64,000 nucleotides of DNA, taken from contig VXSK01000002.1 in the NCBI GenBank assembly GCA_009838035.1, positions 248,001 through 312,000 of the forward strand, written 5' to 3'. Below the pieces are notes generated by a model. It had not been told where the DNA came from, did no database searches, and saw only the letters and a list, made by a program, of their open reading frames with translations. Source of the stretch: Gammaproteobacteria bacterium (GTDB taxonomy: Bacteria > Pseudomonadota > Gammaproteobacteria > Steroidobacterales > Foliamicaceae). Positions 45,277 to 60,316 of the stretch are shown here, piece by piece (the stretch's first letter is position 1; every line of letters begins with the position of its first letter). Both the position numbers and the translations under genes were made by a program.

Positions 45277-47040
45277 ATGACTGAATCGAGCATCGATAAA
45301 GGGCTGCGTTTTGAAGCGAACGACCGGCCTTCCCTGCCCCTCACTATCGGCCTGGGGTTGCAGAACACGGCGCTGACGCTGGCCGGCGTCGTGCTGACTC
45401 CCACAATCCTCATCACAACCGCCGGCGCGGGCGATGCCTATCTCCGTTGGGCCCTGTTCGCCGCGCTGGTGGTCAGCGGCATGGCCACGTTCATTCAGGC
45501 CGTGCGATTCGGCCGCATCGGCGCCGGTTACATCCTGGTGATGGGCAGCACCACGGCTTATCTGGCGGTCGGCATAAGCGCCGTGCGCAGCGGAGGTCCC
45601 GAGCTGATGGCCACGCTGATTGTCGTGGCTGCCTTCACGCAGTTCATTCTCGGCTCGAGGATGGCCATGTTGCGGCGCGTGTTTACGCCGACGGTTGCCG
45701 GCACGGTGCTCATGCTGATACCCGTGAGCATCGCCCCGATCATTTACGGCAAGCTGATCAATGTACCGGCAGGCGTCGCACCCGCTGCGGCGCCGGTAAC
45801 TGCGCTGGTGACGCTTGCCGCCTCCGTTCTACTGGCGCTCAGATTGTCCGGCATCTGGCGGCTCTGGGCTCCCGCGATCGGCCTGGTATCCGGGAGCCTC
45901 GCGGGCGCGTGGTTCGGAATCTACGACACCGCGCGCGTTGCGGCCGCGCCCTGGATGGGGCTGCCGGATTTCAGTGCCTATCCGGGGCTTGACCTCAGCT
46001 TCGACGCCACTTTCTGGGCGCTGCTTCCGGGTTTCATCCTGGTCACGCTGGTCGGCGCCCTTGACACGCTGGGCGACGCGATCGCGATCCAGCGCGTGTC
46101 ATGGCGCAAGCCGCGCGCAACCGACTTCCGCTCGATCCAGGGCGCAATCTATGCCGATGGGGTCGGCAACCTCCTGTCCGGATTGGGCGGGACGGTACCG
46201 AACACCACTTACGGCAATTGCATCGCAGTTGTGGAAATCACCGGAGTGGCCGCCCGCCGTGTCGGCGTCTGCGTCGGGGCTGTTTTCGCTGTCCTGGCTT
46301 TCCTGCCGAAAATCGTCGCCGTGGTTGTCGCAATACCGGGACCGGTCGTGGGGGCTTACCTGGCCGTAATCATGGCGCTCATTTTCGTTCTTGGACTGCG
46401 AATCGTGATTGCCGATGGATTCGATTACCGCAAGCGCCTGATCGTCGGATTCGCTGTCGTTGTGGGCATATTGTTCCAGTTCGACCTGGTCTATCCGGCT
46501 CTTCAGGAAGGAGCGTGGGGTGAGATTCTCGGTCAGGGCATGACGGTCGGAGGCATCACCGTCATTCTTCTCTCGGCCTTCGTGGATCTGACCCGGTCCA
46601 GACCGCTGCGCCTGCGGACCACGCTTTCCGTCGCGGCGGTTCCGGCAATCGATGCGTTCCTGCACGATTTCGCCCAACGGGCGCGTCTGGATGAACGGAC
46701 CACGTTCCGGCTTCGCGCGGTCGGCGAAGAAGTCCTGCATATCCTGCTGGACGACCGGGTGGAGGAGGCCGAGCGCGACCTGTTGCTGATTGCGCGGGCG
46801 GACGGTCTGGCCACGGACCTGGAATTCATCGCCGGCGGCTCGGAATTCAATCTGGAAGACCAGCTCGCGATGCTGAGCGAGGGAGGCGCCGACCTCCCCA
46901 ACGAGTCCGAGGTGCCGCTGCGCCTGCTGCGCCATTACGCCACTTCGGTCCGACACCAGCAATATCACGGAACGGACATCGCCACGATCCGCATCGAACC
47001 GGAGGGGGCCCCCAGCGGCGAAACGCGGGCTAGTTCCTGA
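45277..47040 (+). CDS. NCS2 permease fused to a GHKL/RsbW-like ATPase domain, copy 2
   Basis: 587 residues from the ATG at 45277 (CGGGA upstream; a GTG at 45253 is possible). It is a clear paralogue of the protein at 41106: same permease segments (QRVSWRKPRATDFRSIQGA, ADGVGNLLSGLGGT) and same C-terminal extension, with FRLRAVGEEVLHILL at the N-box position and LRLLRHYATSVRHQQYH near the end. As in copy 1 the catalytic Asn of GHKL ATPases is not visible. Its stop overlaps by 11 bases the convergent end of the next operon. Confidence 0.75.
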   Translation: MTESSIDKGLRFEANDRPSLPLTIGLGLQNTALTLAGVVLTPTILITTAGAGDAYLRWALFAALVVSGMATFIQAVRFGRIGAGYILVMGSTTAYLAVGISAVRSGGPELMATLIVVAAFTQFILGSRMAMLRRVFTPTVAGTVLMLIPVSIAPIIYGKLINVPAGVAPAAAPVTALVTLAASVLLALRLSGIWRLWAPAIGLVSGSLAGAWFGIYDTARVAAAPWMGLPDFSAYPGLDLSFDATFWALLPGFILVTLVGALDTLGDAIAIQRVSWRKPRATDFRSIQGAIYADGVGNLLSGLGGTVPNTTYGNCIAVVEITGVAARRVGVCVGAVFAVLAFLPKIVAVVVAIPGPVVGAYLAVIMALIFVLGLRIVIADGFDYRKRLIVGFAVVVGILFQFDLVYPALQEGAWGEILGQGMTVGGITVILLSAFVDLTRSRPLRLRTTLSVAAVPAIDAFLHDFAQRARLDERTTFRLRAVGEEVLHILLDDRVEEAERDLLLIARADGLATDLEFIAGGSEFNLEDQLAMLSEGGADLPNESEVPLRLLRHYATSVRHQQYHGTDIATIRIEPEGAPSGETRASS

Positions 47041-47737
47041 CGAAATGGCCCAGGTAATGGCGGCTTTCCGCTCGAGTGCCGCCTTCGCTTACGCAAGCAT
47101 CGTGAACCAAGCGCTCGGAACAGCAGACGTACGCGACATTCGCCGACTGCAGCATCCGCAAACAGGGAGCCTGTCGGGTATTCCGGATATAAGCGTCGGC
47201 CACTTCGCCGGGATGGAGGCGTTCCGGTGAAGCCACGGACTCCGCCATTTCTTCGATGGGTACCGGCACCAGATAGACATACCGGTCCGCGGGGCCCCTG
47301 TTCACGACGATCCGGTTCCGGCTTTTCCATCGTGAGGACACTTCGAGCCCGTCCCACGAGTCGAGGTGCAAGCCCAACCTCAACCCCGATACCCGATCCA
47401 CCGTAATCGAAGGATGATTCGCGTCGTCGATGGACGGGTCGAGCGCGGCGACAGGCGACAGGCTGAGAAATGGCGAGAAGTCCAGCGCTCGCTCGGATTT
47501 CAGGTCGCAGGGAAAGATTGCGACAAAGTCCAGTGCGGCCTCGATTGACAGTTCGTCAAGAGAAGCGGTGAACTTGTTGATTTCGACTTTATTCATCCTT
47601 CGAAAGTCGACCGGCAATCTTGCGTCAGGCCGATAGTCAACGGCATTCGGGTAATACTCCTGCGCGCAGACCAGCGTTTCGCTGACCGAAATCAGGTCGT
47701 GTGCATCGCCCAGCCTGCGGTCAATGTAGATTTTCAT
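47030..47737 (-). CDS. Putative Fe(II)/2-oxoglutarate-dependent oxygenase, RiPP tailoring enzyme
   Basis: 235 residues from the ATG at 47737; a TTG at 47782 would add 15 residues. The C-terminal half fits the 2-oxoglutarate oxygenase core: HLDSWD gives the HxD pair (His124, Asp126), NRIVVNRGPADRYVYLVPV is the typical strand pair after it, SERLVHDACV supplies the distal His (His212), and Arg226 in SRHYLGHF could bind 2-oxoglutarate. The N-terminal half is unfamiliar. It lies 46 bases after the radical SAM gene in the same direction, so I infer hydroxylation of the modified peptide. The family call is by motif only. Confidence 0.6.
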   Translation of the reverse strand: MKIYIDRRLGDAHDLISVSETLVCAQEYYPNAVDYRPDARLPVDFRRMNKVEINKFTASLDELSIEAALDFVAIFPCDLKSERALDFSPFLSLSPVAALDPSIDDANHPSITVDRVSGLRLGLHLDSWDGLEVSSRWKSRNRIVVNRGPADRYVYLVPVPIEEMAESVASPERLHPGEVADAYIRNTRQAPCLRMLQSANVAYVCCSERLVHDACVSEGGTRAESRHYLGHFVRN

Positions 47738-47783
47738 TGAAGATTTGGCGGCGCCGGCGCGATAGCGCAGCGACCCCGCCAAC

Positions 47784-48959
47784 TCAGACCAGGTCTGCGC
47801 CGACCTTTTCCAGCGGTTCGCCGTGCAGGGCCAAGTGCCTCACGACGTGGGTATAGAACTTGTCCAGCCCTTCGCAATAGACCGTGGGGTTGTCGAACCC
47901 ATTGCCGCTGGCATACCGGTGCACCGGCTGGCCGCCGCCGCAGACGTCACGCCAACAGCAGTCGGAACATTCAGGCGCCGGCGTCTTCTTGAAGTGCTCG
48001 AATTCGTGAAACAGCGGGTCCGCGATGATTTCCCCAATGCTGGCGCTCTTCAGGTCCCGGTAGTCATACCCGTTCCAGTACTTCGTGGATCTCAGCGTGT
48101 CGTCCGGCCCGACTCCCCCGTCGGACGACACGGTAATCAGCAGATGGTCCGGGGCATCCCTCCCGTCGCCGAACAGGAAGTTGCCCTGCCCGTAGAGCCG
48201 CGCCAGAAAATGATCGATGAACCGAACGCCCACCGACTCCTCGTCATTCGCCATCCTGTCGAAAACCTCGATCAGGAAATTGCCGTAGGCTTCCGCGTTG
48301 CCGGAAAAATTGTCGTGATTCAGATCAGGCAGCAGGAAGTCGAGCTGACGCACGTTCAGGTCATGCCGGAAGTGATCGTAGATTTCCCCGGGATCGAATT
48401 CCGCCCCGATGACGGCCAGGACTGCCGGAGGTTGATTCAGGTGTTCCTGACACAGTGCCAGACCGCGAACGGTCGCCTGGTAAGACGACCTTCCGTTGTG
48501 GTCGAGGCGATGGGCGTCGTTGTGCGCCTTTGCCCCGTCCAGGCTGACACCCACCTGAATGCGATGCTTGTTGAAAATCTCTATCCACTCGAGATCAACC
48601 AGCATTCCATTGGTCTGGATTGTCATCGACACATCAACGATGGGATCCAGATTTGACCTGATTTCTTCGCAGATCCGGTCGAGCCGGGCTTTCGGCATCA
48701 GAAGCGGTTCGCCGCCATGCAGGTGAATCGCTATTCGCTGAAGTTCGTACTCCTCGGCGAATTCCCTGAGCCTTTGCACCAGCAGCGCAACCGTGTCATT
48801 CGCTATGAGCGCCGAGTGGCCCTTGTAGCTGTCGTCTCCTGCATTGAAGAAATAGCAGTAATCGCAATTCAGATTGCATCGCTCGGTAATCTTCAGTATC
48901 ACTTCCAGCGTATTCAACTCGCGGAAGTTCACTGTTCTTCCTTCAGTAGCCACAGGCAC
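47784..48959 (-). CDS. Radical SAM/SPASM peptide maturase (FxsB/cyclophane-synthase-like)
   Basis: 391 residues with a GTG start. The radical SAM cluster motif is CNLNCDYC (Cys28, Cys32, Cys35), followed by HLHGGEPLL and the TIQTNGMLV and VGVSLDG strands. The C-terminal SPASM-type region has Cys331, Cys334, Cys335, Cys340 and Cys362 in CSDCCWRDVCGGG and VYCEGL, for auxiliary Fe-S clusters. This architecture is that of enzymes that crosslink side chains in RiPP precursors (FxsB, XyeB, GrrM types). The precursor with three FVS motifs lies directly upstream. No separate PqqD-like recognition domain is seen. Confidence 0.88.
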   Translation of the reverse strand: MPVATEGRTVNFRELNTLEVILKITERCNLNCDYCYFFNAGDDSYKGHSALIANDTVALLVQRLREFAEEYELQRIAIHLHGGEPLLMPKARLDRICEEIRSNLDPIVDVSMTIQTNGMLVDLEWIEIFNKHRIQVGVSLDGAKAHNDAHRLDHNGRSSYQATVRGLALCQEHLNQPPAVLAVIGAEFDPGEIYDHFRHDLNVRQLDFLLPDLNHDNFSGNAEAYGNFLIEVFDRMANDEESVGVRFIDHFLARLYGQGNFLFGDGRDAPDHLLITVSSDGGVGPDDTLRSTKYWNGYDYRDLKSASIGEIIADPLFHEFEHFKKTPAPECSDCCWRDVCGGGQPVHRYASGNGFDNPTVYCEGLDKFYTHVVRHLALHGEPLEKVGADLV

Positions 48960-48972
48960 GCTCGCTTTTACT

Positions 48973-48997
48973 CCCTGAAGCTTCTCCAGCTTCAGGG
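48973..48997 (-). promoter_or_regulatory. Intercistronic hairpin overlapping the maturase ribosome-binding site
   Basis: A perfect 9-base inverted repeat (48973-48981 and 48989-48997, sequence CCCTGAAGC / GCTTCAGGG) has a 7-base loop. On the minus-strand mRNA its 3' arm ends in CAGGG and is followed by AG, which together form the best Shine-Dalgarno match before the GTG start of the radical SAM gene. Folding would hide that site and could lower maturase translation relative to precursor. No T-tract follows, so it is not an intrinsic terminator. Confidence 0.6.
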
Positions 48998-49034
48998 CCA
49001 GGCAACAGGCTCAGGACAGTCGGGTTTCTGCTAC

Positions 49035-49334
49035 TTAAGCATCCGGCGCAGGTGGCGCCGAAACAAAATTGCCGCCTGCCACTGCCTGACGTCCCGCCGC
49101 GACAGCATCGTCCACGGGCGGAGCGGAGACAAAATTGCCGCCTGCTACCGCACGGCTTCCCGTCGCCACGGCATCGTCCATGGGTGGCGCAGAAACGAAA
49201 TTGCCGCCTGCTCCCGAATAGCTCGAGATCTTCGTCCGCAGATTCGGACCGATTGCCTTGCCCGCTGCTTCCTTCTGGTCATTGGCGGAGATTCCCAGCT
49301 TCTCCCGGAGCTTTCGCACCTTCATGTCTTCCAT
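49035..49334 (-). CDS. RiPP precursor peptide with three AGGNFVSAPP repeats
   Basis: 99 residues with a strong ribosome-binding site (GAGGGG, 6 bases before the ATG). Residues 1-41 form a charged, helical leader (KVRKLREKLGIS). Three identical decapeptides AGGNFVSAPP follow at residues 42-51, 64-73 and 86-95, spaced by 22 residues, with linkers rich in Asp, Ala and Val. Each repeat holds Phe-Val-Ser, the FxS pattern used by FxsB-type radical SAM enzymes to make three-residue cyclophanes, at Phe46, Phe68 and Phe90. Position just before the radical SAM gene and after two peptidase genes supports the call. A non-peptide-product role is unlikely given the repeats. Confidence 0.8.
   Translation of the reverse strand: MEDMKVRKLREKLGISANDQKEAAGKAIGPNLRTKISSYSGAGGNFVSAPPMDDAVATGSRAVAGGNFVSAPPVDDAVAAGRQAVAGGNFVSAPPAPDA
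49056..49211 (-). repeat. Three 66-base tandem units in the precursor gene
   Basis: The segment AAATTGCCGCCTGC (plus-strand reading) recurs at about 49066, 49132 and 49198, exactly 66 bases apart, and encodes the GGNF part of each core. The units differ at third positions and in the linkers, so the decapeptide is kept at protein level while the DNA diverges. This favours selection on the core over recent duplication. Confidence 0.8.
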
Positions 49335-49378: not shown

Positions 49379-51610
49379 TCACGACGTCCCCGGAGCAGAC
49401 ACTTTGGCGGTCCCGTTCTGGAGCTCACGGAGCTTTCGCCAGCGATTGTATTGATTCGCTCTCGCCGGATCGTTGTTTTCTTCATCCTTCAGCCAAAAAG
49501 CGAACCAGTCAACGGCCCCTTGCTGCGACTCCAGGCGCTCCCAGGGGCGCTCGGGGTTGTGACTCGCCTCAGGCAGTACGATCATCTCCACCGGTCGGCC
49601 GAGCTTGCGCAGGAGAATATAGGTGTCCCAATACGAAGGGATCTGGTGCGATTCGATACGGAGCGGCGTGATCATTTCCTCAAGGTTGAACACGGGGTTC
49701 CGCTCAATCCAACTCGTGACCCCATCACCGACCGGAGCACCGTCCAACATCCGCTCATAGTCCCGCTGAAAGCCGCCGAAACCATAGCCGGTCATGTACA
49801 TCCACCAGCCGAAATCGCTCACATCGGCAACAACGGCGGCCGCGAACTCGAAGTCCCCCATCGTCAGCGCGTGCTGCACGTAAAAACCGGTCCGGCTGAA
49901 ACCCGTAATGCCAACCCGTTCCGGATCGATGAGCCCCATTCCGTCCAACACGCGAACGGCGTCGATATAGGAGGCGGACACCTCCTCGGCCTCCTTGGGA
50001 AGCTGCAGCGATTCGCGCGGGCCGTCGGGCACCTGTAGCACCACGAAGCCCTCGTTGGCAAGCGCCCGCGCAGCCATGGCGGCCGACATGCCGCGCGGCC
50101 CGTCCACGAGGAATTCCCACTCATGAAAGCCATGGGTCTGGACCACCAGCGGATACCGCCGACCCTCTTCGAAGCCTATGGGACGGAGCAGTCCCCCCAT
50201 CCAGGTCCGGCCTCCCGACTCCCAGTCAAAGGACTCCACGACGCCGATTGCAAGATCCCGCAACTGTGGATTGAAATCGGTGATTTTCCGGCTCTTCCCG
50301 CTAGGGCTGTGCGTGGCCACGATCTCGGGCGGCTCATTCAGCTCCAGAGCCAGCGAGAAACTCAATCGCGGGCCGTCGTCTTCATCCTGTTCGCCACCTT
50401 CGATTGGCGTCCATCCCGACTCCCCTCTGAAGACCGTTACCGGCGGACCAAAGCGTGACCCGAGCGTTACGGTGGTCAGTGCGCTGTCGGCGTCGAGCGA
50501 GTTGTGCTCGCCCAGCGCAACGATTTCCAGGCTGCCGGACTCAACTTCAATTTCGATCGTCGCGTGCTTGCCCCCGGTTTCCGCGTCGCCGGCCGAGAAT
50601 GGCACGAATTGATCGGACACCACGACACGCCGCGAGTCGGGCGACCATCGGATGACGGACGTCAGGCCATTGGGCGAATCAAGCAGCGGACGCGTTTCGC
50701 CGGTCTGCATGTCCACCAGCATCAACTGCGTCATCCAGAGAATGGTCACGCCCTCTTCGCGCATGCCGGCGATCATGTCGGACAGCAAACCCCAGTCGAG
50801 TTCATACCAGTGGTCCGGTATGACCGGCATTCGCCTGGGAACGATCGCCCATTGTCCCGACGGCGATACCGACATAACCGGGTTGACGAGCGTCTGCGGG
50901 GCAAGGTCCACGGTGACCGTTTCGCCACCACCAGTGCGGGCCACGAACACCCCGTGAGGATAGATGTCGCTGATGATGTCGCGCCCCTCATTCATCAGGG
51001 TCCAGACCGGCTCGAAGTCGTGGACATAACCGTACTTCTGCCGCCGGAGCCGTTCCGCTTCGTCATCCGCCGGCACGAGAACGAGCAAGCCGCCTTCGCC
51101 AGCGCCCGCGGCAAAGTCGATCACGCCTTCGGGATCGTCAGTCCATTGCCGCATTTCGCCGAACCCGGGATCGACGCTGAACACCTGCGGTTGCCCACTC
51201 GGGTTCTCGGCCACGAACATCAGCGTTGGACCGTCCGCGAGCCACCTGACTTTCTGGATCGCGGGCCGGTTCGTGGAAGAAGAAAAACGGGCGATAACGC
51301 GACCCGGCCAGGCGCTTCTGCCGTCGCCGATCACAAAGGCTTCGACTTCGTGGAGCGGAAACAGCCAAAGCGAGTAATCGACGGTTTCGTTGTCGATATT
51401 GCCTTTCTTGGTGACGGCGGTGAGGTATTCGCCTCCGGGCGAAACATTGAACTCCAGGGCCAGGTAGCCGTAGGCCTGCAAGTTCGGCTCGGCCAGCCGG
51501 GTCATCTCGATGGAATCCCTGACCGTGAACGGCTCCCTGGCCGTGCAGACCGCCGAAACCGCCAACGCTACCGGGAGCAGGAACGCGCCTGCCAGTCGTG
51601 GTTTCCGCAT
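49379..51610 (-). CDS. Exported S9 (prolyl oligopeptidase-like) peptidase A
   Basis: 743 residues with a Sec signal ending near VCTA. A beta-propeller region (about residues 40-430) precedes an alpha/beta-hydrolase domain with the nucleophile Ser572 in GFSRTG and a candidate His684 in PEASHNPERP. The usual catalytic Asp segment is replaced by RIESHQIPS, so the acid is missing or moved. This layout and the C-terminal SQQGAVDWFAFWL remind me of the lasso-peptide isopeptidases (AtxE type) found beside FecI/FecR and TonB receptors, but I cannot confirm this. The start abuts the stop of peptidase B (TGAATG). I infer cleavage or recycling of the RiPP. Confidence 0.75.
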   Translation of the reverse strand: MRKPRLAGAFLLPVALAVSAVCTAREPFTVRDSIEMTRLAEPNLQAYGYLALEFNVSPGGEYLTAVTKKGNIDNETVDYSLWLFPLHEVEAFVIGDGRSAWPGRVIARFSSSTNRPAIQKVRWLADGPTLMFVAENPSGQPQVFSVDPGFGEMRQWTDDPEGVIDFAAGAGEGGLLVLVPADDEAERLRRQKYGYVHDFEPVWTLMNEGRDIISDIYPHGVFVARTGGGETVTVDLAPQTLVNPVMSVSPSGQWAIVPRRMPVIPDHWYELDWGLLSDMIAGMREEGVTILWMTQLMLVDMQTGETRPLLDSPNGLTSVIRWSPDSRRVVVSDQFVPFSAGDAETGGKHATIEIEVESGSLEIVALGEHNSLDADSALTTVTLGSRFGPPVTVFRGESGWTPIEGGEQDEDDGPRLSFSLALELNEPPEIVATHSPSGKSRKITDFNPQLRDLAIGVVESFDWESGGRTWMGGLLRPIGFEEGRRYPLVVQTHGFHEWEFLVDGPRGMSAAMAARALANEGFVVLQVPDGPRESLQLPKEAEEVSASYIDAVRVLDGMGLIDPERVGITGFSRTGFYVQHALTMGDFEFAAAVVADVSDFGWWMYMTGYGFGGFQRDYERMLDGAPVGDGVTSWIERNPVFNLEEMITPLRIESHQIPSYWDTYILLRKLGRPVEMIVLPEASHNPERPWERLESQQGAVDWFAFWLKDEENNDPARANQYNRWRKLRELQNGTAKVSAPGTS

Positions 51611-54064
51611 TCAGCGCTCCTCGCTATCGGCGCCCAGGTACCGGCCGTACCAGTCGAAAATCCGCGACCACATGTCGCGGATATTCGCCGGCGAGTTGTA
51701 GACATGGCCTTCGCCCCAGTAACGCACGAACAGGGCGTCCTTGTTCTCACGCAGCAGGGCCGTAAACATCTGCTCGCCCTCCGTCATAGACACGTAATCG
51801 CGGTCGCCCTGCATGATCATCACCGGCGTCTCGATATCGGGCGCGGTGAACAGAGGGCTGTTCCTGAGGTAACGCTCCGGATCGTCCCATGGCGGCGCAC
51901 CCATGCCGCCCTGACTGGTTTCCGACCAGCTCGCGCCGAAAAGGCGCGGCCCGTTCAACTCCGCGGCTTCACGCAGGCGCACATCAAAAACGCCGTACAT
52001 GCTGATCAGATTGGCGGGCCCGGCAAGCGCGACCGCCGCCTTGAAACGGTCGGTCTGGGCAATCGCGCCCAGCGTCGCGTAGCCGCCGTAACTCTGTCCC
52101 TGGATCGCCAGTCTGTCCCCATTCGAATAGCCAGCCTCGATGGCGAGGTCGACCACCTCAAGGATTCGGTCCGCCAGTCCCTTGAGCGGGTCCCGCGGCA
52201 CCTCGTGGTAGGCCTCCGGGAGACTGGGGAAGAGGACCGCATAACCCCGTGCGGCCAGCAGGTGCCAGTTCAGCGCATGCATGTCCCAAGGGTCGAACCG
52301 GTGCCATTCGTTGCGATATACCCCACCGGGATAGACATCGACGATCGTGGGCAGACTTGCGCCCTCGCGATAGCCGGGCGGCATGAGGATCCAGGAATAG
52401 AGCTGCCGCCCGTCCGCACCCTCGTGATCGATGCGAACGGGAGTGCCGGCCGCAACGCCCTCAAGATGCCGGTTAATTCTCATCAGCTCGCGGCATTCGC
52501 CACCACGCGCGCATGCACTCAATACGCCAACGTTTCCCGCAACGTCTCGGTACAGCACGCGTCCAGCGGTGAAAGACGCGGCTATGGGCGTTGCGCGCTC
52601 CGATGGCGCAACCACGCTGCGGACGGTTCCGTCCGCCGCATCCAGAAATACAATTTCGCCGTTGTCTCCCTGCAATACAAGCTGCGGATCGTAGCCTGCA
52701 GCAAACGGAGATGGCGGCCCGAAGCCGTCATGCGCCTGCCAGGTCTTGAGCGGGAAATCGATATCCACCGTCAGCAGGGTGCGTCGGCCATCGGAACCGA
52801 TCGACCACACATCGCCGTCTGCGAGCGCGATGAGACGGTTACCGAGCACCGCTATGAGGTGAATAGGAGAGTCGCCGAACTCGCCGCTCAGCTTTCGCGC
52901 CTCTCCGGCCGGGGAAACAATGAACCACTCAGGCCTCGCCTCCCCTTCCGGGTCCGAAGCGAACACGGCCAGGCTGTCTCCGAACCAAGCGGTCTGCGGC
53001 GCCAACAGTAATTGCAGAGGTCCGGCGCGGGTGACGAGCTTCAGTCCCCCCAGTTTTACCGGCTCGGCCCCGTCGGAGTGCGCGTCGAAGCGCCAAAGCC
53101 TCCCGGTGCTCCAGGCCTCGCCGAGCAGGCGTGCAAAAAACACCAGGGACTGGCCATCCGGCGACCACTTTGCGGTACCCATCGCTATATCGCAGTCGGG
53201 GCAAGGCAGAACGGGGGCGCTTCCTTCTCCCGTTTCGATCACCAGCAGGTCTCTGTGCACTCCGCCGAGGGCCGCGTGCTCCAGAGGCAGTGTCGGGTCA
53301 GGCGCCAACGGCCGGGTGCGTACCGCTGCGAACCGGCGCCGATCAGGCGAAAGTTCCCAGGACTCGAAATTGCCGTCCGCCATTGTTGTGGTGGCTCCGG
53401 TCTGTGCATCAGCCAGCACCAGTTTTCCCTGTACTTTCCGGGATTCGGTAAGCAGGTACTCGCCGCTCCCGATCTCGCTTGACGTCGCCATCCTTCCCCT
53501 TCTCGCCTTTTGCCACTCGGCATACAGCTCGTCGCGCGATTCGGCGTGCAGGTAAACACCCAAGGGCAATGATCCCTCCCGGGTCGTGGCAAATCCCAGC
53601 GTCGAGTCCGATATCCAGACAGGCCCCACGTAGAGAACGCTTGCTTCCGGTATGGCCTTGAGGGCCACGGAGCCGCCCTTCACAAAGTCGTGGATTCCCG
53701 TCACGAAATGGCTGCTGCCCACACGGAAGTACTGGAGTCGGCTGCCGCCCGGCGAAAGGGTTCCGATCCTGTAACCGTCGCCCGGTACCTGCGGGAAAGC
53801 GGACCTCGGGACCGCGTCTCCTTCCAGATCGGCAACAAGGATCCTGGAACGCTGCTGCCCGCGCACGAAGACGCGGCTGAAATCCTGCATGTCTTCGTAG
53901 GCGGGAAAATGCTCGAAATACACGTGGCGGCCGGTGGGGCCGAACACCGCATGGCCGAAGTCCTCGTTGCGGAGCATGTGGTCCACCGTAAAGACCTCGG
54001 CCGCCGTGGCCGCTCCGACGGAGAGCAATGCACCGCAGACGAACGCGTGGGTAATATTCTTCAT
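51611..54064 (-). CDS. Exported S9 (prolyl oligopeptidase/DPP-like) peptidase B
   Basis: 817 residues from the ATG at 54064, with a Sec signal ending near ATAA. The N-terminal propeller is followed by a complete catalytic domain: Ser658 in GQSYGG, Asp756 in QGDRDYVS and His787 in GEGHVYNS. S9 enzymes favour short peptides, often cutting after proline; the core repeats end in Ala-Pro-Pro. It follows the TonB receptor by 109 bases and abuts peptidase A, so both are likely made together in the periplasm. Confidence 0.85.
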   Translation of the reverse strand: MKNITHAFVCGALLSVGAATAAEVFTVDHMLRNEDFGHAVFGPTGRHVYFEHFPAYEDMQDFSRVFVRGQQRSRILVADLEGDAVPRSAFPQVPGDGYRIGTLSPGGSRLQYFRVGSSHFVTGIHDFVKGGSVALKAIPEASVLYVGPVWISDSTLGFATTREGSLPLGVYLHAESRDELYAEWQKARRGRMATSSEIGSGEYLLTESRKVQGKLVLADAQTGATTTMADGNFESWELSPDRRRFAAVRTRPLAPDPTLPLEHAALGGVHRDLLVIETGEGSAPVLPCPDCDIAMGTAKWSPDGQSLVFFARLLGEAWSTGRLWRFDAHSDGAEPVKLGGLKLVTRAGPLQLLLAPQTAWFGDSLAVFASDPEGEARPEWFIVSPAGEARKLSGEFGDSPIHLIAVLGNRLIALADGDVWSIGSDGRRTLLTVDIDFPLKTWQAHDGFGPPSPFAAGYDPQLVLQGDNGEIVFLDAADGTVRSVVAPSERATPIAASFTAGRVLYRDVAGNVGVLSACARGGECRELMRINRHLEGVAAGTPVRIDHEGADGRQLYSWILMPPGYREGASLPTIVDVYPGGVYRNEWHRFDPWDMHALNWHLLAARGYAVLFPSLPEAYHEVPRDPLKGLADRILEVVDLAIEAGYSNGDRLAIQGQSYGGYATLGAIAQTDRFKAAVALAGPANLISMYGVFDVRLREAAELNGPRLFGASWSETSQGGMGAPPWDDPERYLRNSPLFTAPDIETPVMIMQGDRDYVSMTEGEQMFTALLRENKDALFVRYWGEGHVYNSPANIRDMWSRIFDWYGRYLGADSEER

Positions 54065-54173
54065 GTGTGGAGTCTCAATTGGCCGGCGCCGCTCGCGAAG
54101 CACAGATCTCCATGTGCAGATCAGCAACCTGCGCGAGAGATTTCCGGCAGCGATCCGCCGGAAAGCAGAGCCT

Positions 54174-56960
54174 TTACCAGCGATTCACCAGACGCAATGA
54201 GACATAGCGGCCCATCGCGTTCGCGTTTGTTGCATCATAAAGAAGACCCGTCGAATTACCCGCCACCTTGGGTGGGCTTCGGTCAAACAGGTTGGTAACG
54301 CTGAAGGTCGCGGAAAAACCACCCAATACCGGCATTGAAGCCAGTTCGGCGCCATCGAGCCGAAGGCTCAGATCCACGGTAGTGTGGGATCTGATCGCCT
54401 GCTCCGGATTAATCAAGACATCCACATAGTTGTCCGTGTAGTTAACATACACATTGCCGCTCAACAGGCCTCGGTCGAGTCCGGCCCGGGCACGGAATTG
54501 CATGTTTACCGGCCGGCCCGCACGATCGAGTTCGGATCGGAACGGAGAAACCACGGTAACCGCGCGATCAAACTCGAAATAGTACGAAGCGTTGAATCCG
54601 ACGGAAAGTACACCGAAGCTGGTGGAACGCTGTGAATTGACGGATAGATCCAGCCCCCTGATTCTTTCGAGTCCTATGTTCTGCCGCTGATTGTTGAACA
54701 GCACGAGCCCAGGCAAAGCGACAAGCGGATCGTCCACTCCGTGCGCGTAGGGAAGACCGCTCTGGTTGAAGAAGCGAAAGGCTTCCGGCAGGGACGTATT
54801 TGCCAGGGCAACGTCGACTAACGCGTTTACCTGCTCGCGGGTCGGCATCCGCGTGATGACGGGAGCATAGATTGCTTCGTTGTTCAGGGAAGCGAAGGCG
54901 TCGTTGATGCCCGTGGGTTCGTCGATCCGGTTCTCGTAATCGATATCGAAATAAGAGAGGGTAAGGGTGGTGTTGTCGAGGAATTCGGGTTCATAATCGA
55001 GCGAGAGCGTAAACGTTTCCGCTTCTTCCGGCGTCAGGTCGGACGAAGCGCCCGCCAAAACCAGAATCGGCGCAAATCCTCCGGGCGCCATCGGATCGGG
55101 GCCCATTCTCAGGATGGCTTGCGCGGAATCCGGCGCAAAATCGAACAGGAACAACGACGGCGCGCGAAAGGACGTGCCCCAGGTGCCGCGCAGGGTCACT
55201 TGTTCGCCCGGCGCGTAAATCACCCCTACCTGCGGCTCCGTCGTATCGCCGATGTCGCTGTAATCGTCGTAACGGACTGCTGCATTGATCTCGAAACGGC
55301 GCAGTCCGGGCTGATCACCGTCAGTTATGAATGGAAGGCGTAGCTCGCCGTACCCCGAAGATACGTCGCGGTCGATGTCGGTGGTCACCCCGCGGCCATC
55401 GAACCTTAGTTCCCTGAACACCTCAGTCCGGTGTTCAATCCCGAGCGCAAACAGAACGTCAGTGGTCCCCATCGTAAGGGCCGTGCCATCGAGATCCAGG
55501 CTCAATTGAGTGCTTCGCACGGACTCTTCGCCGGCCGTCTCCCGGTCGCCGAATGAGCCGCCGCTGATTGCCTTGAACCACGAATCACGCTCTCCGTAAG
55601 TGCCCGTGAACTGCAGGTTCCAGTCGCCTCTGAAGCCGACCGTCAGACCGGCGGTGCCCCGGAACGAGTCGCCCCGAGTTTCAGTTGCATTGAGAAGCGT
55701 GAAGGGGCCCACCGTCCGATTGGACTCGGAGTAACTCTCTTCTTCGGTAAAGATGATGTCGCCCTGCAAACGGATGTTGTCGGCAAGATCGTAATGACCC
55801 GCAACAAAAGCGGTTTGGCGATCCCGTTCCGGCAGGAGGTCCCACTCGTCGGCAGTGGGCAGCGACGAGCCAAACGGGAACGGTACGCCTTCGCCTGCGA
55901 CACCCGCGGCGGTCGCGTCCAGACGGGAGTTGTTCTGATAATCGTAGGCAAGGACAAAACCCGCGTTTTCGAATTCCATGCCTCCAACCACGCTGGCCTG
56001 CCGCCGGTCGCCGCCATCGCGACCAAAACCACCATAGACTTGCGCTTCCAGGCCGTCATAGGACTTGCGTGTAACGAGATTCACTACGCCCGCTACGGCG
56101 TCGGAGCCGTAAATCGCCGAGGCGCCGCCGGTGAGGACATCGACACGTTCAATCACGGACAAGGGGATGGCGCCCACGTCGAACACCCTGCCGTTGATTG
56201 CAGCGGGATAACGGCGCCCGTTTAGCAAGCTTAGAGTGGATTCTGGGCCGAGCCCCCTGAGCGAGATCGCCGTGGTGCCGTCAACATTGGAGTTCGCGAT
56301 TCGCGAAACACCCGCGGCGTACCTTCCGGATGCGGATATTTCCCCAAGGTTCTGCGGCAGCGCCTCGAGGAAGTCCTCGACGCTGTTCATTCCGGAGTCA
56401 TAAAACTCGTCGCGAGTGAACGAAACCGAAGGGCTCAGGGTTTCTATTCCGCGGATGCGCGTGCCCGTGACCACGATTTCTTCCAGGGCCAGGGCATCAC
56501 GATCAACCTCGGGTTCTGCAGTTTCGGCGGTAACCGGCTGAGCCTGCGCCAACCGTGCCGGTTCGACGGTCTGCGCCCCCGCCAGCCGAGGTGATTCGGG
56601 CCGAGGATTGTTGCTACCGATCGAAGCTTCCATAATGTCGGCGCTGCGCCCCTTTATCGTTACTGCTTCGCCCACGGTGCTGAATTTCAGGCCGGTGCCG
56701 TCGAGCAAGGCCACAAGAACCTTTTCCGCCGTTCCCTCGCCGGTGAAGCCCGAAGTCTCGACCCCTTCAAGCGACCGGGCCGCGACGACAAGTTGCAGTT
56801 TTGCCTGTACCGAGAATTCGAGGAGCGCAACGTCCAGAGGCTGCGGATCAATGTCGAATTGCCTGCTCTCGGCGGGTTCGGCCTGCAGGAGCGGAACGGC
56901 GCCGAAAACCAGCGATACTGCCAAGGCGACACGAATTAAACAGGATTCACTTTGGCGCAT
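54174..56960 (-). CDS. TonB-dependent transducer/receptor with STN domain
   Basis: 928 residues from the ATG at 56960 (GAGGAGAACA upstream). A Sec signal (ends near LLQA) is followed by a secretin/TonB N-terminal STN domain (about residues 33-105, FDIDPQPLDVALLEFSVQA to GEAVTIKG), a Pro/Ala-rich linker, EEIVVTGTRI, the plug (GLGPESTLSLLNGRRYPAAI, VLTGGASAIYGSDAVAG) and a 22-strand-type barrel ending VSLRLVNRW. The STN domain lets such receptors signal through FecR to an ECF sigma factor, both encoded just upstream. I infer uptake or sensing of the RiPP or its metal or ligand complex. Confidence 0.92.
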   Translation of the reverse strand: MRQSESCLIRVALAVSLVFGAVPLLQAEPAESRQFDIDPQPLDVALLEFSVQAKLQLVVAARSLEGVETSGFTGEGTAEKVLVALLDGTGLKFSTVGEAVTIKGRSADIMEASIGSNNPRPESPRLAGAQTVEPARLAQAQPVTAETAEPEVDRDALALEEIVVTGTRIRGIETLSPSVSFTRDEFYDSGMNSVEDFLEALPQNLGEISASGRYAAGVSRIANSNVDGTTAISLRGLGPESTLSLLNGRRYPAAINGRVFDVGAIPLSVIERVDVLTGGASAIYGSDAVAGVVNLVTRKSYDGLEAQVYGGFGRDGGDRRQASVVGGMEFENAGFVLAYDYQNNSRLDATAAGVAGEGVPFPFGSSLPTADEWDLLPERDRQTAFVAGHYDLADNIRLQGDIIFTEEESYSESNRTVGPFTLLNATETRGDSFRGTAGLTVGFRGDWNLQFTGTYGERDSWFKAISGGSFGDRETAGEESVRSTQLSLDLDGTALTMGTTDVLFALGIEHRTEVFRELRFDGRGVTTDIDRDVSSGYGELRLPFITDGDQPGLRRFEINAAVRYDDYSDIGDTTEPQVGVIYAPGEQVTLRGTWGTSFRAPSLFLFDFAPDSAQAILRMGPDPMAPGGFAPILVLAGASSDLTPEEAETFTLSLDYEPEFLDNTTLTLSYFDIDYENRIDEPTGINDAFASLNNEAIYAPVITRMPTREQVNALVDVALANTSLPEAFRFFNQSGLPYAHGVDDPLVALPGLVLFNNQRQNIGLERIRGLDLSVNSQRSTSFGVLSVGFNASYYFEFDRAVTVVSPFRSELDRAGRPVNMQFRARAGLDRGLLSGNVYVNYTDNYVDVLINPEQAIRSHTTVDLSLRLDGAELASMPVLGGFSATFSVTNLFDRSPPKVAGNSTGLLYDATNANAMGRYVSLRLVNRW

Positions 56961-56988: not shown

Positions 56989-58101
56989 TCACTGCCCGGC
57001 TTCGCGTGGCCGTTTGCGGATAACGACTTTGTTTTCGTCCACCAGCTGCACCTCAAGATCAAATACGTCCTCAAGGGCCTGCAGCCAGTCGCCGGTCTGG
57101 TCCTGAAACACCGATCCGGTAAAGAGCATTTCTTCAATCTCGGCGTCAAGAATCATGATTTCCTTGCCGGAATAGCGGCTCACACCCTCCATGACGTACT
57201 GGAGGGGTTCCGCCCGATAGCGCAGAAGCCCGGCCTGCCACTGCGTTGCCTCGGTGGGATCGTTCAGTTCGACCACACTCAGTTCCGTTGGGCCGACCAC
57301 GGCCTGGGCGCCGACCCCAATCCGCGCGGCCGTCTGTTGACGGTATGACGGCGCGTCTCGCGCACCGGCATGGGCCCCGTCAACCGTGCGCCTGACCTCA
57401 ACACTCCCCTCGGTCACGGTCACGACGACCCGATTGGCATCGCGGCGCACGTTGAATACCGTCCCCAGCGCCGTAATGGTCCCGGCGCCCGCCATGACGA
57501 TGAAGGGACGGCCTGCATCTTCCACTACACGGAAAAGGGCCTCGCCGGTTTCCAGCATGACGACGCGCTGCTCAGCGGAAAAGTTCACGGAAAGCGACGA
57601 CCTGGCCCCCATCGCAATGGCGGACCCGTCGGGCAGCGTGATGCTTTGATGTTCCGCGACCTCGGTCTGGTGGGCCTGAATGGATTCATCCGCCTGCGGC
57701 GGCAGCACGTAGAAACGGACCAGCAATACGCCAGCGGCCATCACGGCGGCGGCGACTGCCGCTGTCGCGGAGCGGCGAACCCAGGGAGGCATTGCTGCCC
57801 AACGGCCCCATAAGTCGAGCGCCGCGATGCCCGCCGCCGCCCCCGCCTTCCCGGAAGAATCCGCGGCTGCCGGTGCAGGACGAACGCGCTCACGCCCGGG
57901 ATGTGACGGCACCGGAATGTCCTTCAGATCATCGGCGTAATCCTCCACTCGGCGCGAAAGCCGCTCCACCTCGGCAAACGCCTGTCTGTTGCGCGCGTCT
58001 CGGTTGATCCACGCCTCCCATCGAAGCAGTTCGCCAGCGGAAATATCCGGCTCCTGCAATTTCATCAGCCATGCGGCCGCTTGTTCCCGTCTGTTGCTCA
58101 T
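56989..58101 (-). CDS. FecR-family anti-sigma/signal transducer
   Basis: 370 residues from the ATG at 58101, overlapping the sigma-factor stop by four bases. The cytoplasmic N-terminal DUF4880-like part (EQAAAWLMKLQEPDIS, LLRWEAWINRDARNRQAFAEVERL) is followed by one membrane helix (about residues 110-130) and the periplasmic FecR domain (HQSITLPDGSAIAMGARSSL, GTVFNVRRDANRVVVTVTEG). The C-terminus has an STN-like fold. It links receptor occupancy to the sigma factor. Confidence 0.92.
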   Translation of the reverse strand: MSNRREQAAAWLMKLQEPDISAGELLRWEAWINRDARNRQAFAEVERLSRRVEDYADDLKDIPVPSHPGRERVRPAPAAADSSGKAGAAAGIAALDLWGRWAAMPPWVRRSATAAVAAAVMAAGVLLVRFYVLPPQADESIQAHQTEVAEHQSITLPDGSAIAMGARSSLSVNFSAEQRVVMLETGEALFRVVEDAGRPFIVMAGAGTITALGTVFNVRRDANRVVVTVTEGSVEVRRTVDGAHAGARDAPSYRQQTAARIGVGAQAVVGPTELSVVELNDPTEATQWQAGLLRYRAEPLQYVMEGVSRYSGKEIMILDAEIEEMLFTGSVFQDQTGDWLQALEDVFDLEVQLVDENKVVIRKRPREAGQ

Positions 58102-58715
58102 GGTTCCTTGTGGGTATCGAAGACCTGGGCTAGGTTCGGATCCGGTGCCGCGGATTCCAGCCTTTCCGCGCAGTGGGCCAGCGCGCGCGCAACGTATAGC
58201 CGCACCATGCGCACCGACAGCTCCATCCTCGTTGCTGTCTCCGCAATCGAGAGCTGATGGACCTTGTATAAGAGAAAGGCGGTTCTGCACCGGGGCGGCA
58301 ACTCCGCGAGCGCCTCCCGGACTATCGCAAGTTCCTGCGCTGCAAGCACCGCCTTTTCCGGGGAGGGGCTGGACTCCTCGGCGCCGACAAACGCGGTCTT
58401 GCGCAGTGAGGCGCGACGCTTGCGCTGCTTCAGCCGGTCATTGGCAAGATTGGCCGCCACGCGAAAGAGATAGGCCCGGAAGTGATTGACCGCGTCCGGC
58501 TCATTCAGCCCCAGGAGCCTGACGTAGGCCTCCTGAGCTATTTCCCGCGCTTCCTCGTCGGAATGAAGCCGGGCAGCAAGGAACCGCACCAGGGCGGCAT
58601 TGTGCTCCTCAAAGAGCGAGACTACGCGTTCCCTGGGATCTTTCGTTCCGCGCCCTGATGCCGCCCGAGTAGAGGTCGGGTCATCGACTCGCTCGCTCTG
58701 GTTGTTCTTTCGCAC
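58098..58715 (-). CDS. ECF sigma factor (FecI type)
   Basis: 205 residues with a GTG start. Region 2 reads EEAREIAQEAYVRLLGL with HFRAYLFRVAANLANDRLK, and region 4 reads LAELPPRCRTAFLLYKVHQL with a helix-turn-helix after it. It is the first gene of the RiPP operon and overlaps fecR. It should direct RNA polymerase to its own or the receptor promoter when FecR releases it. Confidence 0.92.
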   Translation of the reverse strand: MRKNNQSERVDDPTSTRAASGRGTKDPRERVVSLFEEHNAALVRFLAARLHSDEEAREIAQEAYVRLLGLNEPDAVNHFRAYLFRVAANLANDRLKQRKRRASLRKTAFVGAEESSPSPEKAVLAAQELAIVREALAELPPRCRTAFLLYKVHQLSIAETATRMELSVRMVRLYVARALAHCAERLESAAPDPNLAQVFDTHKEP

Positions 58716-58952: not shown

Positions 58953-59264
58953 TCAGCCGTCCTCTTCGGTCTCGGGCGCCATGTTCGCCTGAGCCCCTGC
59001 GTCCGCGCGTAGCGCAAGTTGGCCCTCTATTCTTGCGGCCCTTTCGCGCAGACTCACAAGGTCACCGCTGATGTTCTCGAGACGGACGTTGACCTCCGCA
59101 AAGCGGCCATTGACTTCCGCAAAGCCGCTGCGAAGTTCGGCCCTGACATCGGCCATATCGCTGCGCTGCTGTGCCTGTCCCTGAAAAACCGCGCCCAACA
59201 GAAGGGCTACCGCGGCAATCGCCGCGGACACCTTTCCAGCGCTGATCCATGCGCTCTTGCTCAC
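58953..59264 (-). CDS. Small membrane-anchored coiled-coil protein of unknown function
   Basis: 103 residues with a GTG start at 59264. One membrane helix (about residues 10-28) is followed by a heptad-like region (RSDMADVRAELRSGFAEVNG and on) predicting a coiled coil, and a Glu-rich end. A second, truncated copy of its first third lies at 60162-60316 beyond the fitAB-like module. I recognise no function. Confidence 0.55.
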   Translation of the reverse strand: MSKSAWISAGKVSAAIAAVALLLGAVFQGQAQQRSDMADVRAELRSGFAEVNGRFAEVNVRLENISGDLVSLRERAARIEGQLALRADAGAQANMAPETEEDG

Positions 59265-59405
59265 TGCACTACCCTTACGGCGGACAAACAATACGTTTGA
59301 CAATATCACAGCAGCGCCACAAGGTCGCGTTGAAATACTCGACAAATCATTCAATAAGGCGCACGCCGCCGTGTTTGTCTTGGTATCCACTATACTTCCC
59401 GACTT

Positions 59406-59420
59406 GATTGCATTGCAATC
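59406..59420. promoter_or_regulatory. Perfect 15-base palindrome upstream of the fitAB-like module
   Basis: GATTGCATTGCAATC is a perfect palindrome with 7-base arms, 37 bases before the antitoxin start. A TATACT hexamer at 59391-59396 could be the -10 box, placing the palindrome at the transcription start, where FitA/VapB-type antitoxin complexes autorepress. No convincing -35 box is seen. Confidence 0.5.
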
Positions 59421-59456
59421 ATCACGTAAATTTGGATTGCCGGACTGTCGGAGCGC

Positions 59457-59705
59457 ATGACCATGGCAAGCATCACGATCCGAAATCTCGACGACAGAGT
59501 GAAGACGCAGTTGCGCGTGCGGGCGGCGGGCAACGGGCGTTCCATGGAAGAGGAAGCGCGGTTGATCCTGCGCGAGGCCGTCGGGCGCAAGCCGAGTTCC
59601 AAAAACCTTGCGAGTATCGCCCGCTCGTACTTTGGCCCGGACAATGGTGTGGATCTGGAACTGCCTCCGCGCGGTCCGATGCGCGAGCCGCCATCCTTCG
59701 ATTGA
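59457..59705 (+). CDS. fitA: FitA-type (VapB-like) antitoxin
   Basis: 82 residues (or 80 from the second ATG). The N-terminus MASITIRNLDDRVKTQLRVR is a ribbon-helix-helix DNA-binding domain of the FitA type, and GRSMEEEARLILREAV follows. The C-terminal tail would wrap the PIN toxin. It precedes the toxin by nine bases. Confidence 0.85.
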   Translation: MTMASITIRNLDDRVKTQLRVRAAGNGRSMEEEARLILREAVGRKPSSKNLASIARSYFGPDNGVDLELPPRGPMREPPSFD

Positions 59706-59714
59706 GCGTCGCTC

Positions 59715-60140
59715 GTGTCTGTGCTGTTGGACACCAACGTCGTGTCCGAGTTGATTCGCAAGTCGCCCCACCCTGCCGTCAATGCGTGGGCCGCCGGCCA
59801 TCCGCTCGAAGATCTGTTCTTCTCGGCGGTCGGCGAAGCGGAGCTACGCTACGGCGCAGCGATTCTGACCGCCGGCCGGCGCCGGGAAACGCTGATTGCG
59901 AATATCGAACGGATGCTGCGCGAGGCCTTCGATGGCCGGGTGCTGCCGTTCGACAGCGATGCGGCGCGTGATTATGCGGAAATTGCCGCCGCGCGCCGCT
60001 CGGCCGGGCGCCCTATTACGCCGGCGGACTGCCAGATCGCGGCGATCGCCCGCTCTCGCGGCATGACCGTAGCGACGCGCAACGTCCGGGACTTCGAGAA
60101 TCTCGGCGTCGAGATCATGGATCCCTGGTCGCCCCCATGA
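59715..60140 (+). CDS. fitB: PIN-domain toxin (FitB/VapC family)
   Basis: 141 residues with a GTG start. The PIN acidic site is present: Asp6 in LLDTNVVSE, Glu43 in EAELRYG, Asp105 in TPADCQIA and Asp126 in NVRDFENLGV. FitB/VapC toxins are Mg2+-dependent RNases. The module appears intact. The partial repeat of the upstream small gene begins 21 bases after its stop. Confidence 0.88.
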   Translation: MSVLLDTNVVSELIRKSPHPAVNAWAAGHPLEDLFFSAVGEAELRYGAAILTAGRRRETLIANIERMLREAFDGRVLPFDSDAARDYAEIAAARRSAGRPITPADCQIAAIARSRGMTVATRNVRDFENLGVEIMDPWSPP

Positions 60141-60161
60141 CCGGTAGCACCGAAGCGTCCG

Positions 60162-60316
60162 TTGACTTCCGCAAAGCCGTTGCGAAGCTCGGCCCTGACA
60201 TCGGCCATATCGCTACGCTGTTGGGCCTGTCCCTGAAAAACCGCGCCCAGCAAAAGAGCGACCGAGGCGGTCGCCGCAGACACCTTCCCGGCGCTGATCC
60301 ATGCGCTCTTGCTCAC
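60162..60316 (-). pseudogene. Truncated copy of the small coiled-coil gene
   Basis: A 166-base segment (60162-60327) is about 88% identical to 59110-59275 and in the same orientation. It keeps the GTG start and the first 55 residues (MSKSAWISAGKVSAA to NGRF) and then runs into the antisense of the toxin gene, so the rest is lost. The two copies bracket fitAB, as left by a duplication or insertion event. Confidence 0.75.

Follow-up and report, generated by a model that had tools for sequence, protein, structure and literature searches.

A three-gene cassette in the window (the whole 64,000-nucleotide stretch of DNA that was analysed) would, with a probability of about 70%, direct the synthesis of a triceptide-like RiPP: a multi-core precursor (A), a cyclophane-forming radical SAM/SPASM enzyme (B) and an Fe(II)/2-oxoglutarate oxygenase (C), giving one Phe-Val-Ser cyclophane per repeat, plus oxidation. 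The leader followed by repeats, the constant order A-B-C, and the family relationships of B and C were shown at the sequence level; the chemistry is predicted from them. The features of the cassette and of its surroundings are summarized in Table 1.

Table 1. Location of the cassette genes, precursor segments and neighbouring genes in the window.
Feature	Position	Strand	Remarks
Probable Fe(II)/2-oxoglutarate oxygenase C	47030-47782	-	250 aa if started at TTG 47782, 235 aa if at ATG 47737
Radical SAM/SPASM peptide maturase B	47784-48959	-	391 aa; CNLNCDYC cluster motif and SPASM cysteines
A-B intergenic stretch	48960-49034	-	10-bp hairpin (CCCUGAAGCU/AGCUUCAGGG) without U-run; found in 8/8 loci
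Precursor gene A	49035-49334	-	ATG start; 99 aa: 41-aa leader, three AGGNFVSAPP units, tail APDA
Core copy 3, AGGNFVSAPP	49050-49079	-	aa 86-95
Core copy 2, AGGNFVSAPP	49116-49145	-	aa 64-73
Core copy 1, AGGNFVSAPP	49182-49211	-	aa 42-51
Leader of A	49212-49334	-	aa 1-41, MEDMKVRKLREKLGIS..GPNLRTKISSYSG; length equal in 8/8 genomes
S9-family peptidase, weakly AtxE2-like	49379-51610	-	Non-constant context; lies 44 bp upstream of A; AtxE2 score 156.6 bits vs. cut-off 400
Second S9 prolyl-oligopeptidase family protein	51611-54127	-	Non-constant context
TonB-dependent receptor, weak STN match	54174-56960	-	Non-constant context; start from homologue L025
FecR-type anti-sigma regulator	56989-58290	-	Context
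ECF sigma factor, FecI-like	58098-58715	-	Context

The repeated unit and its conservation

The three identical cores described in a sequence-only reading of this DNA were confirmed, exact at the residues listed in Table 1. The 22-residue spacing given there was correct as a period (start to start) but not as a linker length, which is 12 residues. The longest word present three times had 10 residues, versus 5 or fewer in 2000 residue shuffles of the A protein, and no further copy of the unit was found in the window's genome. Pairwise, the three core copies showed 3-5 synonymous and no replacement differences in their DNA and, differing only synonymously, are not a fresh DNA duplication.

The precursor was carried by five of the nine genomes of the genus, and further loci (L027, L028 and L029 among them), all from gammaproteobacterial MAGs, were obtained by scanning a public genome collection with the enzyme neighbouring A. 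Seven homologues of A, with 2-3 copies each, were available from other gammaproteobacterial MAGs, and the motif-bearing homologues all belonged to one clade of MAGs. A sponge origin of these MAGs is suspected, going by the isolate names only; a literature search for such an origin found nothing.

The consensus [AVI]GGNF[VI]S[AS]PP fitted all 23 copies from the eight genomes: G, G, N, F, S, P and P were unchanging, and the middle residue of F-x-S was V or I (V to I in two copies). P-P and G-G were the only constant features at the unit borders. Repeat number did vary on comparison of homologues, with two copies in G003 and three in the other seven genomes, whereas the leader had 41 residues throughout and the first core began at residue 42 in 8/8 genomes. 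The linker was reduced to 1 residue in L027, L028 and L029, had six in G005, and reached up to 12. Homologues retaining the enzyme but lacking the FVS motif, which the earlier reading had named as contrary evidence, were looked for and none was seen within the clade.

The description of a constant decapeptide among variable linkers and codons held inside the gene, and linkers and codons also varied between genomes. Between the window and G007 and G004, core codons showed 7-8 synonymous and no replacement changes, versus 2-5 synonymous and 4-7 replacement changes for linkers and tail. Selection thus acts on the unit, and purifying selection on the repeats was shown at the codon level.

The probable maturation enzymes and the proposed pathway

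The order precursor, radical SAM/SPASM enzyme, protein C was constant in 8/8 genomes, with B and then C directly downstream of A at every locus, and the constant cassette of these eight loci was without a dedicated protease or exporter. The hairpin between A and B is not a plain terminator, since the U-run is missing; it was 100% paired in eight sequences, but 65 of 500 shuffles reached its covariation score, which makes the support weak. It is a possible mRNA processing or attenuation element and, as a guess, might help to keep the precursor mRNA abundant.

The three best NCBIfam models for B were XyeB (TIGR04496, 293.1 bits), YhhB (NF041707, 292 bits) and FxsB (TIGR04269, 270.6 bits), the next kind of model scoring 157. 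All three are cyclophane-forming families, in line with the earlier proposal that a RiPP precursor adjoins a cyclophane-type radical SAM enzyme. The enzymes of L027 and L028 scored like B (263 bits for the FxsB model). None of the curated cut-offs (450, 445 and 370, respectively) was passed, so the cross-link made by B is not readable from family membership. In a tree of 23 enzymes, B and its orthologues formed a separate clade (support 100/100) that grouped with the XyeB-type enzymes (94/96), apart from the FxsB row. Best models and tree position place B in the cyclophane-forming class and in no named family; the FxsB-type membership first suggested was not upheld, as B had 271 bits vs. a cut-off of 370 and was separated from FxsB in the tree. 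The closest solved relative was the radical SAM domain of ChlB (9gm3, 1e-52), a multiple cyclophane synthase according to a title cited in PMC12636437.

The FxS pattern noticed in the cores was present as F-V/I-S in 23/23 copies and matches the link motif of MscB, which forms a C4(Phe)-Cbeta(Ser) link at F-x-S (PMC11002830). This motif, together with the kinship of B, suggests one Phe-Ser ring per repeat.

In Pseudoalteromonas and two other genomes, ORFs that look like precursors and repeat aromatic motifs lie near enzymes related to B. An ORF beside a XyeB-like enzyme on a Pseudoalteromonas plasmid (L048, 2695-2934) has repeated, glycine-rich Y-x-Q motifs (GGNYAQ, GGSYDQ, GSGYTQ, SGSYSQ) and is a candidate multi-core precursor. 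An ORF beside a YhhB-like enzyme (L043, 5132-5395; a similar ORF in L042, 6450-6722) has repeated FRR and glycine-aromatic motifs. A small ORF ending in TFGGLGLFCKACWGQCEPN (L021, 10347-10631) has as neighbours a radical SAM enzyme of 38% identity and a gene resembling ABC transporters, and its SPAMREKIG before G-G resembles GPNLRTKIS of the window's leader. A Rhizobium YhhB gene (L050, 3498-5648) was about twice as long as usual; its C-terminal half contains an HEHRH motif and recalls enzymes in which radical SAM and aKG-HExxH parts are fused.

The third gene, C, was omitted from the sequence-only account. Its alternative ATG start corresponds to the start in homologue L026, and the protein has roughly 235-250 residues across the eight genomes. 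Searches with C gave no family matches in NCBIfam (E<=10) or Pfam (E<=0.1), no distant homologues beyond the window's own in 369 genomes of the class, and no homologues in a viral collection. An eight-homologue profile gave a weak direct match (E 2.5e-4) to the solved oxygenase MicC (PDB 9vkm), H139-x-D141 and H227 of C aligning on the His-x-Asp and distal His of MicC. A plasmid search returned two relatives only, from Nostoc and Streptomyces, both adjoining grrM (GrrM/OscB cyclophane maturases). The Nostoc relative (L044, 3539-4387; annotated as hypothetical) is about 25% identical to C and matches MicC at 1.3e-28, and the catalytic residues were kept in all five aligned proteins. The AlphaFold model of C from eight close sequences was poor (pLDDT 37), and the fold was therefore judged from sequence. 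C probably belongs to a cyclophane-associated family of Fe(II)/2OG oxygenases, and with an oxygenase present, the loss of 2 Da per core expected in the earlier reading may be only part of the mass change.

In the proposed pathway, B would bind the leader of A and join the Phe ring to Cbeta of Ser in each F-V-S (i to i+2, -2 Da per repeat). C would then add oxygen near each ring, a hydroxylation suggested by its kinship; the invariant Asn before Phe, or Pro-Pro, are guessed as the sites. A protease would remove the leader, plausibly at the G-G before each N-F-V-S, and the product could be a single chain bearing two or three rings, or else a set of small separate peptides.

Variable neighbours and alternative explanations

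The S9, TonB and FecIR genes upstream of A were present in only 2/8 loci. G005 has the TonB receptor and both S9 genes in the window's order, and the distance to A was 43-44 bp in G000 and G005. Homologues of the adjacent S9 gene were found in two of the five same-genus carriers and not in G003, G004 and G007 (one of these genomes is only 66% complete), where a different TonB receptor gene lies divergently at that place; nor was this gene seen in the loci read from other lineages. The nearest S9 gene, missing from G003, G004 and G007, is thus an optional neighbour, and S9 cutting after Ala-Pro-Pro, as had been put forward, does not stand as a general step. The AtxE2 scores obtained, 156.6 and 69.7 bits, both fell short of the cut-off of 400. 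C39 peptidases were also considered as cassette proteases and rejected: all nine genomes of the genus have 2-3 of them, with or without the cassette, which makes them uninformative, and those of the window's genome lie on other contigs than the cassette.

Further along the window (58953-60316), two related minus-strand ORFs (58953-59801 and 59972-60316) have SAWISAGKVSAA...QGQAQQRSDMADVRAELR in common and flank two plus-strand ORFs (59457-59705 and 59715-60140) that look like a toxin-antitoxin pair.

Four other explanations were weighed. B might modify the repeats other than by a Phe-Ser cyclophane, for example by a link on Asn or a change on Val, and here Asn is just as invariant as Phe and Ser, B lies outside every named family cut-off, and the Tvg system combines a repeat precursor with a radical SAM enzyme and an oxygenase in quite different chemistry (PMC9062424). 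This is nevertheless unlikely: V is exchanged for I in two copies, the Phe-x-Ser spacing is that of a known i to i+2 link (PMC11002830), and B is nearest to the cyclophane-forming families. A cyclopropane on Val was considered and placed second to the Phe-Ser cyclophane. A part in the pathway for the two S9 peptidases, the TonB receptor, FecR and the sigma factor (Pro-Pro cutting, or import and degradation of the product) is likewise doubtful. These genes lie just upstream of A on the same strand, at 43-44 bp in both G000 and G005, and one S9 protein shows a distant resemblance to the lasso peptide isopeptidase AtxE2; however, three other carriers in the genus (the 66% complete genome included) have no homologue of the adjacent S9 gene, the loci of the other lineages lack this gene as well, and the cassette is constant without it. 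Less probable again is a further reading for the two genomes that have the sigma/FecR/TonB/S9 block: the repeated cyclophane peptide produced by A-B-C would serve its own maker as a signal or be scavenged as a ligand, with the TonB receptor and FecIR sensing it at the cell surface and the S9 peptidases breaking it down. Such a locus would be the cyclophane equivalent of the lasso peptide loci of proteobacteria.

For the fate of the product, one long peptide staying whole with two or three rings was rated at somewhat under even odds. The missing conserved residue after P-P at the repeat borders, linkers as short as one residue, and the want of a protease constant among loci are in its favour, whereas linker variation is unconstrained, as it would be for spacers that are thrown away, and every unit has its own G-G and P-P borders. 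A chance or low-complexity coding artefact without function has a negligible probability: such repeats can come from slippage, but eight genomes with synonymous drift and no replacement in the cores, the constant neighbours and the shuffle result all oppose it, and the homologues had already refuted it.

Comparison with known systems

The cassette would add a cyclophane RiPP clade without a name in current NCBIfam models, and provides a natural within-precursor experiment in which one enzyme would meet two or three near-identical substrates at spacings of 1 to 12 residues. Its freshest part is the unannotated oxygenase C, from a MicC-related family that apparently works alongside cyclophane maturases from two distinct groups.

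The Yhh system (YhhA/YhhB/YhhC), which resembles “Cluster 41” of PMC9062424, has the same order of precursor, cyclophane radical SAM enzyme and 2OG-Fe(II) oxygenase, and like the window's cassette several crosslink motifs per precursor. It differs in the Tyr/His-based motifs of YhhA, unlike the Phe-x-Ser unit, in YhhC, which matches Pfam 2OG-FeII_Oxy_3 (PF13640) while C does not, and in the score of B (292 bits vs. 445 for YhhB). The XyeA/XyeB triceptides have the enzymes nearest to B in the tree, and XyeA shares with A the G-G at the leader-core border; in contrast, B is well below the XyeB cut-off (293 vs. 450 bits), the motifs of Xenorhabdus xyeA are of the Trp/Phe kind and do not form perfect repeats, and the cluster around it encodes an ABC transporter with a peptidase domain and nothing recognised as an oxygenase. 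FxsA/FxsB (MscB) has the Phe-x-Ser crosslink motif in common with A (PMC11002830), but in the window the motif lies inside the precursor and recurs.

MicC, an alpha-ketoglutarate-dependent non-heme iron oxygenase, shares the catalytic His-x-Asp and distal His with C, and the relatives intermediate between them adjoin GrrM/OscB; a literature search did not turn up the pathway to which MicC itself belongs. Tvg (TvgA/TvgB/TvgC) has, like the window, short perfect repeats, a radical SAM enzyme and a putative 2OG oxygenase, but its TvgB turns the Val of TVGG repeats into cyclopropylglycine, and transporter/peptidase genes (TvgD/E) are present (PMC9062424). Repeat precursors with a radical SAM enzyme and an oxygenase thus have precedent in Tvg and “Cluster 41” (PMC9062424), and as the unit is kept while its number and spacing change among relatives, the cassette looks like a new variety within a known class of modified peptide.
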